From the NCBI RefSeq assembly GCF_015291665.1, contig NZ_CP030048.1, positions 4,030,001 through 4,094,000 of the forward strand: a DNA stretch of 64,000 nucleotides. The letters run 5' to 3'. Both the position numbers and the translations under genes were made by a program. Shown here piece after piece: positions 8,109 to 59,572 of this stretch (position 1 is the stretch's first letter; each line of letters opens with the position of its first letter). This DNA comes from Bradyrhizobium sp. CCBAU 53338 (GTDB taxonomy: Bacteria; Pseudomonadota; Alphaproteobacteria; Rhizobiales; Xanthobacteraceae). The notes under the pieces were generated by a model. It was given only the letters and a program-made list of their open reading frames with translations, ran no database searches and was not told the origin of the DNA.

Positions 8109-8927
8109 ATGATCAATCCGGCGCCGCCTGCGCGGCTTGGCCTGCGACGCTGGCTCGTGCTCGGCTGCGTGCTGACAATGCTGACTGGCGCGGCGGCAGT
8201 TGCGAATGCACAAGGTTTGGTCAAAGGTGTCCAGGACGGCGCTGCAGCCGGCAACAAGGCGGCGGGTCCGGTCGGAGGCGTTCTCGGCGGCGCCATCGGC
8301 GGTGTGGTCGGCGTCTTCACCGGCGTGCTCGGCGTGGGAAATAACAACAACGGCCAGCAGCCGGCCGCCAAGGACGCCGGCAAGGACGCATCCAAGGATG
8401 CGAAAGATGCCAAGCAGTCGGGCGCTGCCAAGGACAAGGATGCCAAGGGCGGCAAGGACACGGCCAGGGCCGGCAAGGGGGCTAAGGCGAGCAAGGAGGC
8501 CAAGAATGTGCCTGCGGCTGATGCCAAGGACAAGGACGTCACGGTCCTGACCCAGCCCGGCGCGCCGCAATTGACCGCCGACCAGATCGTCGCCAACAGC
8601 GATTCCTACATCGAGCGGATCAAGACCGAGCTCAATCTCACGCCCGATCAGGAGAAGCATTGGTTCGGCTTCTCCAGCGCCATGCACTATCTCGGACACA
8701 ATGGTGCCGAGCGGCTGAACCTGCGCATTGCGCGGGCCAAGCGGGATCCGCCTGACGACATCATCGAGCAGATGCGCAACGAGGCGCAATTCCTGAACGA
8801 CCGCGCGGCCGACCAGCGCAATGTCGCCGACGCCGCCGAACCGTTGTATTCGAGCCTCGACGACAAGCAGAAGGAGGTGTTCATCCAGGAGATGGTGCGC
8901 CTCAGCCACGAGCGCGGCCTGGATTGA
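8109..8927 (+). CDS. Periplasmic LTxxQ-motif (Spy/CpxP-like) protein
   Basis: A 272-residue exported protein. The signal peptide is LRRWLVLGCVLTMLTGAAAV followed by ANAQ. Next come a Gly-rich segment (GGVLGGAIGGVVGVFTG), a long linker of repeated Lys/Asp/Ala (KDAKDAKQ and similar), and a helical domain from about residue 155 with the LTxxQ motif in ELNLTPDQEKHW. LTxxQ proteins include the envelope chaperones Spy and CpxP. The ATG at 8109 is preferred over 8097 because GGAG lies 6 bases upstream. A role in envelope stress is an inference from the family. Confidence 0.75.
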   Translation: MINPAPPARLGLRRWLVLGCVLTMLTGAAAVANAQGLVKGVQDGAAAGNKAAGPVGGVLGGAIGGVVGVFTGVLGVGNNNNGQQPAAKDAGKDASKDAKDAKQSGAAKDKDAKGGKDTARAGKGAKASKEAKNVPAADAKDKDVTVLTQPGAPQLTADQIVANSDSYIERIKTELNLTPDQEKHWFGFSSAMHYLGHNGAERLNLRIARAKRDPPDDIIEQMRNEAQFLNDRAADQRNVADAAEPLYSSLDDKQKEVFIQEMVRLSHERGLD

Positions 8928-9049
8928 TCCTGGATTGCTCGAGCTTGAATCGGATTGCATGCATTCGTGGAAATTGAAGGCCACGAATTCGTGAATCCTT
9001 CTCGCAAATCGGGTATGATTAACTTCGCAATGAGGCTTGCGGGGTTGAT

Positions 9050-9427
9050 ATGGCGGGCGGACTCTCCGTTTTCCTGGTCGAAGACGAGGCGTTGATCCGG
9101 ATGATGATCGCCGACATGGTGGAGGAGCTTGGCCACCATGTCGTTGCGGAAGCGGACAATGTGCGCGATGCGAGTGCGTTCGCGATGACCGCGCAGTACG
9201 ATTTCGCAATCCTCGACATCAATCTGATGGGTGTCTACGTCGATCCCGTCGCCGATCTGATCGAGCGTCGCGGCAAGCCGTTCTTGTTCGCCACCGGCTA
9301 CGGGCCGGAGTTGTTGCCGTCCTTGCTCCGGCGCCGGCCGATCCTGCGCAAGCCGATTGCGCTGGACCAGCTCAAGACCATGATCGACTCGCTGTTTCCG
9401 GATGCGCCGGCGAAGGCATCGCACTAA
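9050..9427 (+). CDS. Single-domain response regulator (receiver only)
   Basis: A 125-residue stand-alone receiver domain. The acidic pair is in VFLVEDEALI, the phosphoacceptor Asp in FAILDINLMG, the Thr/Ser position in LFATGYG and the conserved Lys in ILRKPIAL, so all key residues are present. There is no output domain and no kinase next to it. It probably acts in a phosphorelay or by protein interaction. Confidence 0.88.
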   Translation: MAGGLSVFLVEDEALIRMMIADMVEELGHHVVAEADNVRDASAFAMTAQYDFAILDINLMGVYVDPVADLIERRGKPFLFATGYGPELLPSLLRRRPILRKPIALDQLKTMIDSLFPDAPAKASH

Positions 9428-9458
9428 CGCTGTCAGTGACGGGGACGGCGTTGACGAA

Positions 9459-9485
9459 AATGGCCGCCCGAACGGGGCGGCCATT
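9459..9485. terminator. Strong bidirectional terminator hairpin
   Basis: An 11-bp perfect GC-rich stem (AATGGCCGCCC / GGGCGGCCATT) with a 5-base loop sits between the receiver gene and the convergent small membrane protein gene. Confidence 0.75.
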
Positions 9486-9510
9486 TCGCGACGGAAGATC
9501 CGTCAGTTGT

Positions 9511-9672
9511 TTACATCAGGCCGGCGCTGATATCGACGCCGTGTGCCATCAGGCTGACCGAGGCAACGAGGCCCAGGCAGCAGAAGATGACAATCGCCTT
9601 GAAAGAATAATCGTTCGACCGGGTCTGGACGGCAGCCGGCATTTCGGCGAGCGAAATCATGCTCATGTTCAT
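9511..9672 (-). CDS. Small single-span membrane protein
   Basis: A 53-residue protein with one transmembrane segment (AIVIFCCLGLVASVSLMAHG). The start at 9672 follows AGGGGGA in the SD position. It resembles the many short membrane proteins of Bradyrhizobium; function unknown. It ends near the hairpin at 9459-9485. Confidence 0.65.
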   Translation of the reverse strand: MNMSMISLAEMPAAVQTRSNDYSFKAIVIFCCLGLVASVSLMAHGVDISAGLM

Positions 9673-40203: not shown

Positions 40204-40217
40204 TTGATCCGAATCAA
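40204..40217 (+). promoter_or_regulatory. Perfect FNR/FixK-type box
   Basis: TTGATCCGAATCAA is an exact match to TTGAT-N4-ATCAA. It lies 53 bases upstream of the hybrid kinase start, where a class II activator site would be. Binding is inferred. Confidence 0.65.
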
Positions 40218-53936: not shown

Positions 53937-55781
53937 TCAGGCGGCAACCGATTCGCTTCGCTGGGCACTCTTGCCGACCAACGGGGCAAACTGTTCCGAC
54001 GTCACCGTTTCGTTTGCGATCAATAGCTCTACACCGGCTTCGAGATCGGCACGCCGCCGTTGCAGGATATCGTGGGCGCAACGCTCGCCCTCCTCGACCA
54101 GGTTCCGCACGGCAAGATCGATCTCTCGGCCGGTGGCTTCCGCGGCCGCAACGACCATATCCTGGGGGGCCGCAACAAAGGTTTGCGGTTTGGGCGCGTA
54201 GGTGCGTTGGCCGACCGTCTCGTCCATGCCGTATTTGGTCACCATCTCGATGGCGACTTCGGTCGCTCGCTGAAGATCATCTGCGGCGCCGGTCGAAATG
54301 GCCCCGTCGAAAATCAGGCGCTCCGACGCGCGTCCTCCCATCAGCACGGCGATGCGGTTTTTCAACTCCCCGGCCGTGAGCAGGAACCTGTCTTCGGTCG
54401 GTCGCTGGATGGTGTACCCCAGCGCTCCGATTCCACGTGGAATGATCGACACCTTCTGCACGGGATCGACGCCGGGCAGGCTGGCCGCGACGAGGGCATG
54501 TCCCATTTCGTGATATGCAACCCTTCGCCGTTCGTCCTTGCCGAGCACCCTGCTCTTCTTTTCGATCCCGGCCACGATCCGTTCGATCGCCGTGACAAAA
54601 TCGGCGAACGACACCGCTTCGCCGCTTCGCCTGGTCGCAGCGATGGCGGCCTCGTTGATGAGGTTGGCGAGATCAGCTCCGGTGAATCCGGTCGTGAGAC
54701 CTGCGACCTTGTCGAGGTCGACATCCTTGCCCAGTTGAATCTTGCGGACGTGCACCTTGAGAATGGCAACGCGTCCAGTCCTGTCCGGCCGGTCCACAAG
54801 GACCTGCCGATCGAATCTCCCGGCCCGCAACAGTGCAGGATCGAGGATTTCGGGGCGATTGGTGGCTGCGAGCAGGATCACGCCTGCGCTTGGGTCGAAT
54901 CCATCGAGTTCCGACAGGAGTTGGTTGAGCGTCTGCTCTTTCTCGTCGTAACCGCCAACCGACAGCGGCCCGCGGCTGCGTCCCAGCGCGTCGAGCTCGT
55001 CCACGAAAATGATGCACGGGGCGGCCTTGCGGGCTTGCTCGAACAGATCCCGAACGCGCGCCGCGCCGACCCCGACGAACATCTCGACGAATTCAGAGCC
55101 CGAGATCGAGAAGAATGGGACACCGGCCTCGCCCGCAACCGCGCGCGCAAGCAACGTCTTTCCAGTCCCCGGCGGCCCGACCAGCAAAATTCCCTTCGGC
55201 ACATGGGCCCCGAGGCGGCCGTAACTCTTGGGATCCTTCAGAAACGACACCACCTCCTGAAGCTCGAACTTCGCCTCGTCGACGCCGGCAACATCGGCGA
55301 AGGTGACCTTGATGTCCTTTTCGATATAGACCTTGGCGTGCGATTTCCCGATCGACATCAGTCCGCCGAAACCCTGGCGCCCGGCCATGCTCCGCCCAAG
55401 CCAGAACCAGATGACGAAGAAGACGATGACCGGGAAAATCCAGGATAGCAGGTTTTGCAGCCCGCTGTTTGCGGGAACGCCGGTCACGCTCACGCCCTTT
55501 GCCGCAAGCTTTTCGGCCAGCGCCAGATCAACCCGTGCGGTCACGAAGGCTGATTTTCCGCTCGAGAGCGGTTCCTTCAGTTTTCCCTGTATCGTATCCG
55601 GACCGACGGTCACTTCGACGAGCTTGTCCTGGGCGAGCAGTTGCTCAAACTGGCTGTAGGGAATGGTCTCGATCGAGTTGTAGGCAGTGAACATGAACTG
55701 CAGCACCACGAGCAGCATGCCGCCCGCGAAGATCAGGGCCATCGCTATCGTCTGCTTGCGGGAAATCTGTTCGGACTCCAC
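53937..55781 (-). CDS. ftsH: ATP-dependent zinc metalloprotease FtsH (accessory copy)
   Basis: A 614-residue membrane AAA protease. Membrane segments are near residues 11-31 and 110-128, with a periplasmic domain between. Walker A is GPPGTGKT (202-209), Walker [34 protein letters not shown], and the zinc site HEMGH (424-428). No housekeeping partner genes (tilS, folP or glmM) are adjacent, so this is probably an accessory, stress-related copy. It is divergent from hsp20, with a near-perfect FNR/FixK box in the shared region. Confidence 0.92.
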
Positions 55782-55901: not shown

Positions 55902-55915
55902 TTGAGCAAGATCAA
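55902..55915. promoter_or_regulatory. FNR/FixK-type box between ftsH and hsp20
   Basis: TTGAGCAAGATCAA matches TTGAT-N4-ATCAA with one change. It lies 71 bases before the hsp20 start and about 120 before the ftsH start, so it could serve either. Confidence 0.5.
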
Positions 55916-55963: not shown

Positions 55964-55985
55964 AAGCCTCTCAGGAGAAATGATC

Positions 55986-56507
55986 ATGGCAAACGAGACC
56001 AAATTACCCGTGACGAAATCTGCAACGTCGCCGACAGTCACTGGACAGACCTGGCGACCGTTTCAGGCATTGAGGAGCGAGATCGACCAGATCTTCGACG
56101 AGTTCGGCAACGGCTTCTGGAACCGGCCTTTCCGGTCTCCTGCATGGCTCGAACGCGAACTTGCCAAGTCGATCTCGGCGCCGGCGGTCGATGTCGTCGA
56201 AAGCGCCAACGCGTATGAAATCACGGCGGAGCTTCCGGGCCTGGATGAAAAGAACATCGACATCAAGCTGGCCAATGGCGGCCTGACCATCAAGGCCGAG
56301 AAACGGGAAGAGACCGAGGAGAAGAAGAAGGACTATTACGTTTCCGAACGCCGCTATGGCACTTTCGAACGGTACTTCACCCTGCCCGACGGCGTTAACG
56401 CCGATAAGATCGAAGCGACCTTCAAGAACGGCGTCCTCAAGGTTACGCTTCCGAAGACCGAGGACGCGCAGAAGTCGGCCAAGACGATCAACGTGAAGGC
56501 CGCCTGA
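55986..56507 (+). CDS. Hsp20 / alpha-crystallin family small heat shock protein
   Basis: A 173-residue chaperone that holds unfolding proteins. The alpha-crystallin domain covers about residues 63-155, with VDVVESANAYEITAELPGLD and the closing GVLKVTLPK motif. The N-terminal WRPFQALRSEIDQIFDEF is typical of class A type. The ATG at 55986 has AGGAG 8 bases upstream; an ATG at 55980 is too close. A hairpin follows the stop. Confidence 0.93.
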   Translation: MANETKLPVTKSATSPTVTGQTWRPFQALRSEIDQIFDEFGNGFWNRPFRSPAWLERELAKSISAPAVDVVESANAYEITAELPGLDEKNIDIKLANGGLTIKAEKREETEEKKKDYYVSERRYGTFERYFTLPDGVNADKIEATFKNGVLKVTLPKTEDAQKSAKTINVKAA

Positions 56508-56568: not shown

Positions 56569-57318
56569 TTACTGCGCGGCCACAAAGAGCTTCCTGACCG
56601 CGTCGACCGGCACTGCGAACGCAAACCCGCTCCGTCGTGCGAGGACCACCCCGATCAGCTTCCCCTGCATGTTGACCAGCGCGCCGCCCGCATTCCCTTG
56701 GCTGACGCGAACGTCCGATTGGATCAGATCGGTATTGGCAATGCCCGGGCACGAACGATGCAAGGCCGACACAATTCCAAGTGTCACGCTCTGTCCCCAA
56801 TCACCGGGATTGCCGATCGCCAGCACCGGGTCTCCCACGTCGAGCGCACCGGCATAATCGAGCGTCATCGCGCGAAGATGGTCGGGCTCCACCCGGAGCA
56901 GCGCAACATCATCTCGATCGGACCGCACGAGCACGAGGGCGTCCAACGCTCGCCCATCCTGGAGCTGAGCCTTTACGACGGTCGCACCGGCGACCAGCTG
57001 ATTTGCGGTCACGATGAAACCTGCCAGGGCATCCACGACGACACCCGCTCCCTGCCGTTCGCGCAGCCCGGGAGGATCCGGGAATCCGGCTTCCGGATCA
57101 TAGATCCTCGACTCCGATCGCATACCCCAGGCCCGGATTCCCACCACGGCCGGCGAGATGCGTTTCACGAGAGGCGCAAGGTTCGTGGTCGAAAACGCTT
57201 CTGTGTGTTCCCTGTAGAATTCATTGCCTCGGCAGACCCCGGATCCGAGGACGAGCGCCAGACTCAGCGCCGACACGCCTGTCCATTTGAGAGAATGGTA
57301 GAAGGAGCTACGCGACAT
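56569..57318 (-). CDS. DegP/HtrA-like pseudoprotease lacking catalytic His and Ser
   Basis: A 249-residue exported protein with a trypsin-like S1C fold and a signal segment (WTGVSALSLALVLGSGV). The fold markers are clear: GAGVVVDALAGFIVT, IGNPGDWGQSVTLGIVSAL and GGALVNMQGKLIGVV. However, the position of the catalytic His is Gln107 (VTANQLV for VTNNHVV) and the catalytic Ser is Ala210 (QGNAGGAL for GNSGGAL); only Asp137 remains. No PDZ domain follows. The frame is intact, so it is probably a non-catalytic chaperone or binding protein rather than a decayed gene. Confidence 0.85.
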   Translation of the reverse strand: MSRSSFYHSLKWTGVSALSLALVLGSGVCRGNEFYREHTEAFSTTNLAPLVKRISPAVVGIRAWGMRSESRIYDPEAGFPDPPGLRERQGAGVVVDALAGFIVTANQLVAGATVVKAQLQDGRALDALVLVRSDRDDVALLRVEPDHLRAMTLDYAGALDVGDPVLAIGNPGDWGQSVTLGIVSALHRSCPGIANTDLIQSDVRVSQGNAGGALVNMQGKLIGVVLARRSGFAFAVPVDAVRKLFVAAQ

Positions 57319-57384: not shown

Positions 57385-57398
57385 TTGAGGATTCTCAA
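57385..57398. promoter_or_regulatory. Symmetrical FNR-like box upstream of the pseudoprotease gene
   Basis: TTGAGGATTCTCAA is perfectly symmetrical in its TTGAG / CTCAA arms and differs from the FNR/FixK consensus at one position per half. It lies 67 bases upstream of the pseudoprotease start. Confidence 0.35.
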
Positions 57399-57569: not shown

Positions 57570-57785
57570 GTGAATCACTCGATCTACATCGTAGATAAGA
57601 CGACCCACCTGAAGGTGGTCGTATTGGTGCTTGTCGGCAGCATCGCCATGATGGCGATGTCGTTGACGGCCCGCATGGCACACCCGGACGTCAATGCGCG
57701 AGTGACGGCGGCCCGGACCGTGTACCAGCCTCATTCAGGCCATGCGCTTGCCGAAATGACCCGACTGGAGAAGCATCCGATCTAG
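57570..57785 (+). CDS. Small single-span membrane protein
   Basis: A 71-residue protein: polar start NHSIYIVDKTTHLKV, one transmembrane segment (VVVLVLVGSIAMMAMSLTA) and a soluble tail. GTG start. Proteins with this MNHSIY...THLK pattern recur in Bradyrhizobium as far as I recall. Followed 25 bases later by another tiny gene on the same strand. Confidence 0.65.
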   Translation: MNHSIYIVDKTTHLKVVVLVLVGSIAMMAMSLTARMAHPDVNARVTAARTVYQPHSGHALAEMTRLEKHPI

Positions 57786-57987: not shown

Positions 57988-58746
57988 CTAGAGGGGTTCG
58001 TCATCGAGGGTGGACGGCTCCGTCTGAAGCGACACGAAGTCGCCTCCGCCGTAATCCTCCTCGGGATCGGGTTGTTCGGACTGGACACAAAGGCGGTCAT
58101 CGACCCTCCGAACGCCTGGAACGTTCTCGCACGTCACGATGACTGCCCTACGCGCGTTTCCTGCCTTGACGACGCCACGCAGGGTGACTGTGCCATCCTT
58201 CACGCTGACGTTCAGGCAGACCGGTTGCCACGGTATTCCGGCCAGTGCGGCAATAACGGACCGGCGGACCTGATTGTCATCCCTGGCGTAGCCGGAAGCG
58301 CTCGTCAGCGGACCGGCAATTGCGGACAGGAAGTCTGATCGGGTGATGATGCCGACGATACGCTCGTCACGCATGATCGGAACATGATTGAAATGCCGCC
58401 GCTCCATCAAGTCCGCGACCTCCGCAAGCGTCGCCTGCTCAGTGGTCGAGACCGGTTGGCGGGTCATGACTTCCTCGACCGTGCCTCCGTGTTCCTTCAC
58501 GAACTCACCTGCGATTCGATTGGTACCGAGCAGCATCGTGAGCAATCGGTTGCGCACGTGCTCCGTCCCGATTTCGGCCCGCCTGAGAAAGTCGCTCTCG
58601 CAGAGGATGCCGACCAGTTTCCCCGCCTCGTCCACGACCGGCAGGCCACTGATGTGATGGGCAAGCATCACCTTGACTGCATCGGCGATCGGCGCGTCGG
58701 GCCGGATCGTCACGACGCGTCGGGACATGATGTGGTGTGCGCGCAT
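57988..58746 (-). CDS. CBS-pair and BON domain protein
   Basis: A 252-residue cytoplasmic protein. CBS 1 (about residues 7-60) has MSRRVVTIRPDAPIADAV and HISGLPVVDEAGKLVGIL. CBS 2 (about 90-145) has MTRQPVSTTEQATLAEV and HFNHVPIMRDERIVGIITRS. A BON domain (about 155-220) follows with VSVKDGTVTLRGVV. CBS pairs bind adenine nucleotides; BON domains often bind membranes or partners. The start is 51 bases from a perfect FNR/FixK box shared with the divergent cytochrome gene. Confidence 0.9.
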   Translation of the reverse strand: MRAHHIMSRRVVTIRPDAPIADAVKVMLAHHISGLPVVDEAGKLVGILCESDFLRRAEIGTEHVRNRLLTMLLGTNRIAGEFVKEHGGTVEEVMTRQPVSTTEQATLAEVADLMERRHFNHVPIMRDERIVGIITRSDFLSAIAGPLTSASGYARDDNQVRRSVIAALAGIPWQPVCLNVSVKDGTVTLRGVVKAGNARRAVIVTCENVPGVRRVDDRLCVQSEQPDPEEDYGGGDFVSLQTEPSTLDDEPL

Positions 58747-58796: not shown

Positions 58797-58810
58797 TTGA
58801 TCAGGATCAA
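58797..58810. promoter_or_regulatory. Perfect FNR/FixK-type box in a divergent promoter
   Basis: TTGATCAGGATCAA is an exact TTGAT-N4-ATCAA palindrome, placed almost midway between the CBS-BON start (51 bases) and the cytochrome start (55 bases). One dimer could activate both genes. Confidence 0.75.
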
Positions 58811-58864: not shown

Positions 58865-59572
58865 ATGCGCATGCGAACGGTTCTGTTGGTTTGGATCCTC
58901 GTCACGCTGTTCGCCTCCAGCGCTGCGGCCCCGGCAGACGTGTCTGTCGCACTGTCCGACCTCATGACCAAACTCCAGCTTCAGCACGCGAAATTATGGT
59001 TTGCGGGCAAGCTGAGCAATTGGCGCCTGGCGGACTACGAGGTTCAACAGATCGGGGCGAATCTCGAAGCGGCGCGCAAATTGTTGGCAGACCCGTCGCA
59101 AGCCGATCGGGTTCAGGAACGGCTTCGGGCCGTGCGCAAGGCACTCCAATCGAAGGACGTTCCCGCGTTCATGGCGTCGTATGGCGCTCTGACAAACGAG
59201 TGCAACGGGTGCCATCGGAGCAGCGGATATGCCTCGATCGTCATGCAGATCCCGCTCACCCTACCCGTCCCCAATCAGTTGTTCGTCGACCAGGTGTCCG
59301 AGGGCCGTGCGCTTGCCAATGCATCTTGCGGGACCTGCCACCTCGTCGCTGATACCGTGAGGGACACGCCTGCCTTCCGTCCACCACCACCAGGCTTTCC
59401 GGAGATCGTCAGCCGACCCTCGTTCTCCGCCGACGGCCTCCGGCAGTTCCTGACGTCAAGCCATCGGCGCCTCGGTCCGGATCAGGCCATGCCGAATCCG
59501 AGACTCTCCGAATCTCAGATCGAAGCCATCGTGGCCTATCTGGAGACTTTGCGCGCGGACCAGCGTCACTGA
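58865..59572 (+). CDS. Diheme cytochrome c
   Basis: A 235-residue exported protein. Signal peptide: RTVLLVWILVTLFASSAAA. Two heme-binding sites: CNGCH (113-117), at the end of a helical cytochrome-c'-like N-terminal domain, and CGTCH (155-159), in a C-terminal class I type domain with a possible axial Met in DQAMPNPRLSES. Likely periplasmic electron carrier. It is divergent from the CBS-BON gene over a perfect FNR/FixK box, which suggests low-oxygen expression. Confidence 0.88.
   Translation: MRMRTVLLVWILVTLFASSAAAPADVSVALSDLMTKLQLQHAKLWFAGKLSNWRLADYEVQQIGANLEAARKLLADPSQADRVQERLRAVRKALQSKDVPAFMASYGALTNECNGCHRSSGYASIVMQIPLTLPVPNQLFVDQVSEGRALANASCGTCHLVADTVRDTPAFRPPPPGFPEIVSRPSFSADGLRQFLTSSHRRLGPDQAMPNPRLSESQIEAIVAYLETLRADQRH

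Follow-up and report, generated by a model that had tools for sequence, protein, structure and literature searches.

The window analysed here, the whole 64,000-nucleotide stretch of Bradyrhizobium sp. CCBAU 53338, a soil bacterium with relatives among the soybean symbionts, contains a gene for a short DegP-like protein of the S1C type, in which both the catalytic His and the catalytic Ser are replaced. The gene, its catalytic codons, its neighbors and the FixK/FNR-type boxes around it are as follows.

53937-55781, minus strand: FtsH-like AAA+ metalloprotease gene (PF00004, PF01434)
55902-55915: FixK/FNR-type box TTGAGCAAGATCAA, between the FtsH-like and Hsp20 genes
55980-56507, plus strand: Hsp20 gene (PF00011), convergent with the DegP-like gene
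56569-57318, minus strand: PDZ-less S1C (DegP-like) gene, predicted pseudoprotease; 249 amino acids, ATG start, intact frame
56689-56691, minus strand: codon 210, GCG (Ala), at the catalytic Ser position in the PDB-chain and family alignments
56908-56910, minus strand: codon 137, GAT (Asp), catalytic Asp retained in the family alignment
56998-57000, minus strand: codon 107, CAG (Gln), at the catalytic His position in the PDB-chain and family alignments
57385-57398: FixK/FNR-type box TTGAGGATTCTCAA, 67-80 bp upstream of the DegP-like ATG
57988-58746, minus strand: CBS-BON protein gene (PF00571, PF04972)
58797-58810: FixK/FNR-type box TTGATCAGGATCAA, between the CBS-BON and cytochrome c genes
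58865-59572, plus strand: cytochrome c gene (PF00034), divergent from the CBS-BON gene

The DegP-like frame is intact, as the original prediction had it, and the proteostasis cluster in which that prediction placed the gene is real, because FtsH-like and Hsp20 genes adjoin. The FtsH-like gene is divergent from the Hsp20 gene. The 64-kb window contains four strict TTGA-N6-TCAA boxes where 0.56 would be expected, and none of 100 shuffles reached four; three of the four sit in the DegP-like locus. The fourth lies outside it, at 40204-40217. Between the DegP-like and CBS-BON genes there is also a 71-codon ORF on the plus strand (57570-57785, GTG start) that encodes a hydrophobic stretch, and conservation of the DNA at this ORF extends to the three closest orthologous loci.

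Fold and catalytic positions

The Pfam domain Trypsin_2 (PF13365) matches residues 90-224 of the 249-amino-acid protein over all 144 model positions (84.8 bits, cut-off 27.6), and no PDZ family was found in the protein by Pfam at an E-value of 0.1. The closest solved structures by sequence are DegP chains, with an aligned region of residues 89-244, and DegP structures are also the top PDB matches in a Foldseek search with an AlphaFold model. This model, a monomer built with an alignment of 53 of the 120 database matches listed (see below), has a mean pLDDT of 80.4, with residues 1-40 below 50 and values of 89-96 in the ten-residue blocks containing the catalytic sites. Residues 8-23 form a hydrophobic N-terminal helix that, judged by eye, resembles a signal peptide. 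The protein thus has the trypsin-like fold and the Trypsin_2 domain of S1C, as seen in the full-length PF13365 match and the Foldseek matches to DegP. What it does not have is the His-Asp-Ser triad, which reads Gln/Asp/Ala, and it is therefore to be classed as a non-peptidase homologue of S1C and not as a peptidase.

In the DegP chain alignment, Gln107 falls in the column of the catalytic His and Ala210 in that of the Ser, where the five best PDB chains shown, all of them protease-dead constructs, also have Ala. The family alignment bears out the assignment of Gln107, Asp137 and Ala210 to the triad positions, which had been made from the sequence alone. A misalignment masking the true His and Ser was considered and rejected, since the PDB and family columns coincide and the model folds like DegP. 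Neither Ser nor Cys was found as a replacement nucleophile at the aligned site in the PDB and family alignments, so that peptide cleavage by the standard mechanism would not be expected. Judged by its triad, the protein is almost certainly not a working protease, and the earlier expectation of a non-proteolytic protein is very likely correct.

Ten orthologs compared at the DNA level use CAC or CAT for the His, GAC or GAT for the Asp and TCG or TCC for the Ser. The His and Ser losses are each one base away from the commonest ortholog codon, and both are transversions. The change beside Ala210, S209N, introduces the residue that DegP itself has at this position (GNSGG).

The protein has only two cysteines, C29 in the putative signal peptide and C190. 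The latter belongs to a family signature, H187-R-x-C190-P-G (codons 187-197, window positions 56728-56760), in which the His and the Cys are each present in 45/46 family members and the Pro and Gly in 46/46; the signature Cys was found in none of the 64 listed S1C matches outside the family. The H-x-x-C-P segment precedes what we take to be the LD loop region. As a speculation, given the low-oxygen locus described below, the signature could serve as a redox, metal or heme site.

Distribution of the family and of other incomplete S1C proteins

A search of about 5.8 billion proteins, with 7999 candidates scored, gave 5942 matches, of which the best 120 were listed. Among these, 56 proteins score above 200 bits and the next match scores 133 bits; we treat the 56 as the family of the window's protein, and their organism, where named, is Bradyrhizobium. 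One entry, the P0001 cluster from the window's species, stands for three sequences. The full His/Asp/Ser triad is present in 51 of the 55 other members. P0018 has a single catalytic loss (Leu for Ser), as does P0024 from Bradyrhizobium sp. LCT2 (Leu for His), and two proteins are unreadable at one site each, P0053 being without the Ser region and P0056 without the His region. The single losses in P0018 and P0024 suggest that the family sheds catalysis repeatedly. The Gln/Ala pair that the original prediction had proposed to look for in relatives occurs in 0/55 other listed family members, so that among them there is no conserved pseudoprotease lineage to examine for selection. Beyond the family, the 64 remaining listed matches include P0064, with His changed to Arg, and P0066, with Ser changed to Ala.

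Across 265 genomes of the genus, the window's own included, clear orthologs were found by tblastn in 11 others (53.8-84.7% identical), and genome G108 carries a more distant ortholog (41-44% identity). All 12 keep the His, Asp and Ser. Further matches at 41-44% identity, for example in G092, G079, G038 and G125, stand outside this ortholog count. A family-level scan found matches at 1e-42 in 9 of 391 genomes, all of them Bradyrhizobium and the window's genome (G000) among them, and when named genomes were scanned, 2 close loci, both in Bradyrhizobium, and 15 distant ones came up. Since few genomes of the genus have the gene and the triad is kept in the orthologs, the DegP-like gene is, on this comparative evidence, accessory, and its ancestral product was an enzyme.

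The ortholog in G025 (locus L071, around 8906-9640) is interrupted by a TAA and differs from the family at its N-terminus, and so looks like a pseudogene. We searched for an active copy of the same family in the window's genome and found none, the next place being only 44% identical. Plasmid-borne family members were also sought and rejected: the 20 records are all below 60% identity, and are annotated as DegP, DegQ-type or Do proteases or not annotated.

The window's genome contains 13 Trypsin_2 domains, 9 with a full triad and 4, including that of the window's gene, with an incomplete one. For the families of the other three, L010, L011 and L012, we read the 30 top-ranking places out of 58, 51 and 60 listed, respectively. 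L010 (G000:C1:6763951-6767349) belongs to a family that has Tyr/Gly/Gly in 30/30 loci read and occurs in 58/60 genus genomes. L011 (G000:C1:6173837-6177232) reads Glu/Asp/Glu, and its family, found in 50/60 genomes, has Glu, Asp and either Gln or Glu in 29/30 loci read, with one unaligned. L012 (L142, G000:C1:71843-72502) reads Leu/Asp/Ser; its family is present in 60/60 genomes and lacks the His in 30/30 loci read. These families appear to be old because they are degenerate throughout the loci read, and those of L010 and L011 look like old, conserved pseudo-S1C families. The L012 frame in the window's genome has 231 codons versus 478 at the next locus, and its halves lie in different frames around L142:1600, which points to a frameshift or an assembly error. 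Given the number of genomes that carry these three families, dead or incomplete S1C proteins are an ordinary part of Bradyrhizobium. The window's protein resembles them in being a Trypsin_2 protein without a full triad, but their losses appear old, whereas here a single known lineage has lost the residues in a family that is otherwise active, which is what makes the case unusual.

Constraint on the gene and its promoter box

Conservation of the protein core was analysed in 46 long members, leaving out three of P0001-P0049 shorter than 230 amino acids as well as P0050-P0056. With the window's protein set aside, 92 columns are near-invariant (at least 93% conserved), and the window's protein breaks H107Q, S209N and S210A. 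Members break 3.1 such columns on average and 13 at most, so with three breaks this is not a generally damaged protein. At least two of the three triad residues would be among three core breaks with p = 0.002, a value that is not to stand alone because the gene was picked for its double loss; some such case across all 46 members, each with its own number of breaks and core columns taken as equally mutable, has p = 0.22. Two random hits would both land in the triad with p = 0.0007.

In a codon tree of 11 genes, which leaves out the orthologs of G025 (stop) and G108 (distant), omega is 0.222 on the window's terminal branch versus 0.219 elsewhere, and setting omega to 1 costs 23.7 in 2dlnL. A long-standing neutral pseudogene is thereby rejected over the branch as a whole. 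With other parameters held at the one-omega fit, the profile of omega for this branch spans roughly 0.13-0.39, and the last stretch of the branch, as much as about 20% of it, is allowed to be neutral. When each is taken as foreground, the three closest orthologs have lower omega than the window's branch (0.069, 0.183 and 0.172) and G021 has 0.245. Pairwise dN/dS between the window's gene and the three closest orthologs, at 0.15-0.19, slightly exceeds the 0.12-0.16 found among those three; for four neighboring genes, pairs with the window's genome give 0.09-0.22. The date of the loss is beyond this selection test because, with recent changes, the branch would for the most part reflect the active enzyme.

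The box upstream of the DegP-like gene recurs in 12/12 orthologous loci, as a strict box in 8 and as TTGC-N6-TCAA in 4. It lies at -72 to -82 in the 10 loci with an ATG at the set start and at -69 in G108; it is also present in G025, at a distance that is not assignable with the start codon ambiguous. The letters of TTGATCAGGATCAA are identical in the three closest orthologous loci. Hsp20 is near the DegP-like gene in 8/12 orthologous loci and is absent on that side from the three closest within the available flanks (the contig of G248 ends 3.4 kb away).

For FixK2 of B. diazoefficiens, PMC9104804 gives the consensus TTGA/C-N6-T/GCAA, and the box at 57385-57398 has this form. The same paper lists TTGAGCAAAATCAA at -86 of hspC2 (blr4637), a gene with a -111.5-fold change in a fixK2 deletion. 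The TTGAGCAAAATCAA letters also precede the Hsp20 gene of G027, whose DegP-like gene, from the gene order, is probably bll4639 of USDA110. On the strength of the conserved box, the DegP-like gene would be FixK2 dependent. Bll4639 does not appear in the main text of PMC9104804, nor in the accessible part of the PMC5017801 tables, which includes blr4637, blr4638, bll4640 and blr4641; in the literature main texts searched we found no mention of it and no expression or activity data.

Loss of proteolysis and what may have been kept

We propose that the gene encodes a young natural pseudoprotease, in which proteolysis was lost and holdase-like client binding was kept, a reading to which we give an even chance. 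It is argued for by the pattern of damage, since of 92 core columns only 3 are broken: two catalytic ones and one that now has the DegP residue. Purifying selection averaged over the branch, at the level seen elsewhere in the tree, and the box kept in every orthologous locus point the same way, as does a fold model that matches DegP, whose S210A variant keeps chaperone activity. PMC5023192 describes DegP S210A as protease-deficient with chaperone activity retained, and as restoring growth to a pertactin-producing E. coli strain in which degP is deleted; a review states that overexpressed protease-deficient DegP suppresses a lethal phenotype (PMC8144458).

Like E. coli DegP and DegQ, the window's protein has the protease-domain fold, and like DegP S210A it has Ala at the aligned catalytic Ser. 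Unlike the S210A variant it is natural rather than engineered and has lost the His as well, and unlike DegP it has the family-specific H-x-x-C-P. It is also without the C-terminal PDZ domains of DegP and DegQ, which makes the analogy with DegP S210A weaker.

The proposed course of events builds on features that were computed directly: the substitutions, the intact frame, branch-average purifying selection, the promoter box and the neighbors. It would start from a PDZ-less S1C protein with a signal peptide, in a FixK2-type (low-oxygen) stress locus. The nucleophile (Ser to Ala) and the general base (His to Gln) would have been lost, while the trypsin fold, the glycines of the oxyanion loop, the remaining near-invariant core positions and an N-terminal segment alignable with the DegP N-terminus were retained. 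The protein would be exported to the periplasm and be incapable of peptide cleavage, and at low oxygen it may hold unfolded clients there uncut, as an ATP-independent holdase like DegP S210A. That the protein still has a function seems rather likely. That the function is holdase-like in particular is a tentative suggestion by analogy, somewhat short of probable; the chaperone, sensor and decoy roles named in the original prediction are not separable by sequence. More doubtful again, though we hold it possible, is a fresh conversion in which selection in the low-oxygen stress locus kept periplasmic client binding and dropped cutting, so that an active HtrA-type enzyme became a natural equivalent of DegP S210A that is also without its His. 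Several observations weigh against a young pseudoprotease: the double change is confined to this one listed family member, the end of its branch may be neutral, its omega exceeds that of the three closest orthologs, the gene is patchy with a stop in one ortholog, there is no PDZ domain, and bll4639 is absent from the accessible parts of two regulation papers that have its neighbors.

The main rival to the holdase reading is a recent chance loss of function in a dispensable, patchy accessory gene that is now being lost, with the low dN/dS contributed by the earlier, active part of the branch. The scatter of 11 other clear orthologs over 265 genomes is what would be expected of such a gene, as are the internal stop in G025, the two single catalytic losses in the family and the member without its Ser region; the neutral stretch allowed at the end of the branch and the family-wide probability of some double hit leave room for it too. 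Drift, however, should strike other core columns equally, and only S209N was struck besides the catalytic pair (the random-hit probability of 0.0007 given above), in a gene with its frame and promoter box intact. We give a recent chance loss a lower probability than the holdase reading. The original reading of a selected protein rather than decay is partly supported: dN/dS, breaks of core columns confined to the active site and the kept box speak against decay over the branch as a whole, but selection is no more than a possibility, with the Gln/Ala pair in none of the other listed family members and a branch that may end neutrally and has an omega above those of the three closest orthologs.

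Distinctly less probable is a pseudo-subunit or regulator that assembles with an active S1C paralog, or activates or dampens it, much as MamO activates MamE-dependent proteolysis. The genome does offer partners, in nine S1C/trypsin-like domains with full triads, but the nearest paralog is only 44% identical and no active S1C gene adjoins. The precedent is MamO, a degenerate HtrA that activates MamE-dependent proteolysis and binds metal (PMC4794232); among the literature matches listed it is the clear bacterial case of a natural pseudo-HtrA. The window's protein is likewise an alphaproteobacterial HtrA homologue with a degenerate triad, and MamO was kept for non-catalytic work (PMC4794232). MamO forms an old conserved clade with Thr for the Ser, a surface di-histidine metal site and a magnetosome setting, whereas the window's gene represents just one lineage of a family that is otherwise active and lies in a low-oxygen stress locus, whose five scanned genes (FtsH-like, Hsp20, S1C, CBS-BON and cytochrome c) give no magnetosome setting.

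Very improbable, finally, are artefacts of sequencing or assembly at the two codons and an unconventional active site capable of cleavage. Each change is a single base, and another S1C gene of the assembly is frameshifted, for real or by error. Against this, two transversions exactly at the catalytic codons would be an improbable error in a 7.3-Mb contig of an assembly rated 100% complete, and no alternative nucleophile exists at the aligned site.

The young pseudoprotease that we propose would belong to a known kind, the S1C non-peptidase homologues, as a young member in an otherwise active family. Its active orthologs in L044 (B. zhengyangense, 84% identical by tblastn) and G027 (71%) keep the His and Ser and have their box position and neighbors in common with the window's gene. 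If the reading is true, the box, the fold and most neighbors are common to a dead protein and to active orthologs with about 84% identity, which would allow a direct test of whether binding alone suffices for an HtrA-type protein to be retained, and of what the loss of Ser and His costs. Automatic naming of such proteins as trypsin-like peptidases would need correcting, and attention would be drawn to the several degenerate S1C families of Bradyrhizobium.
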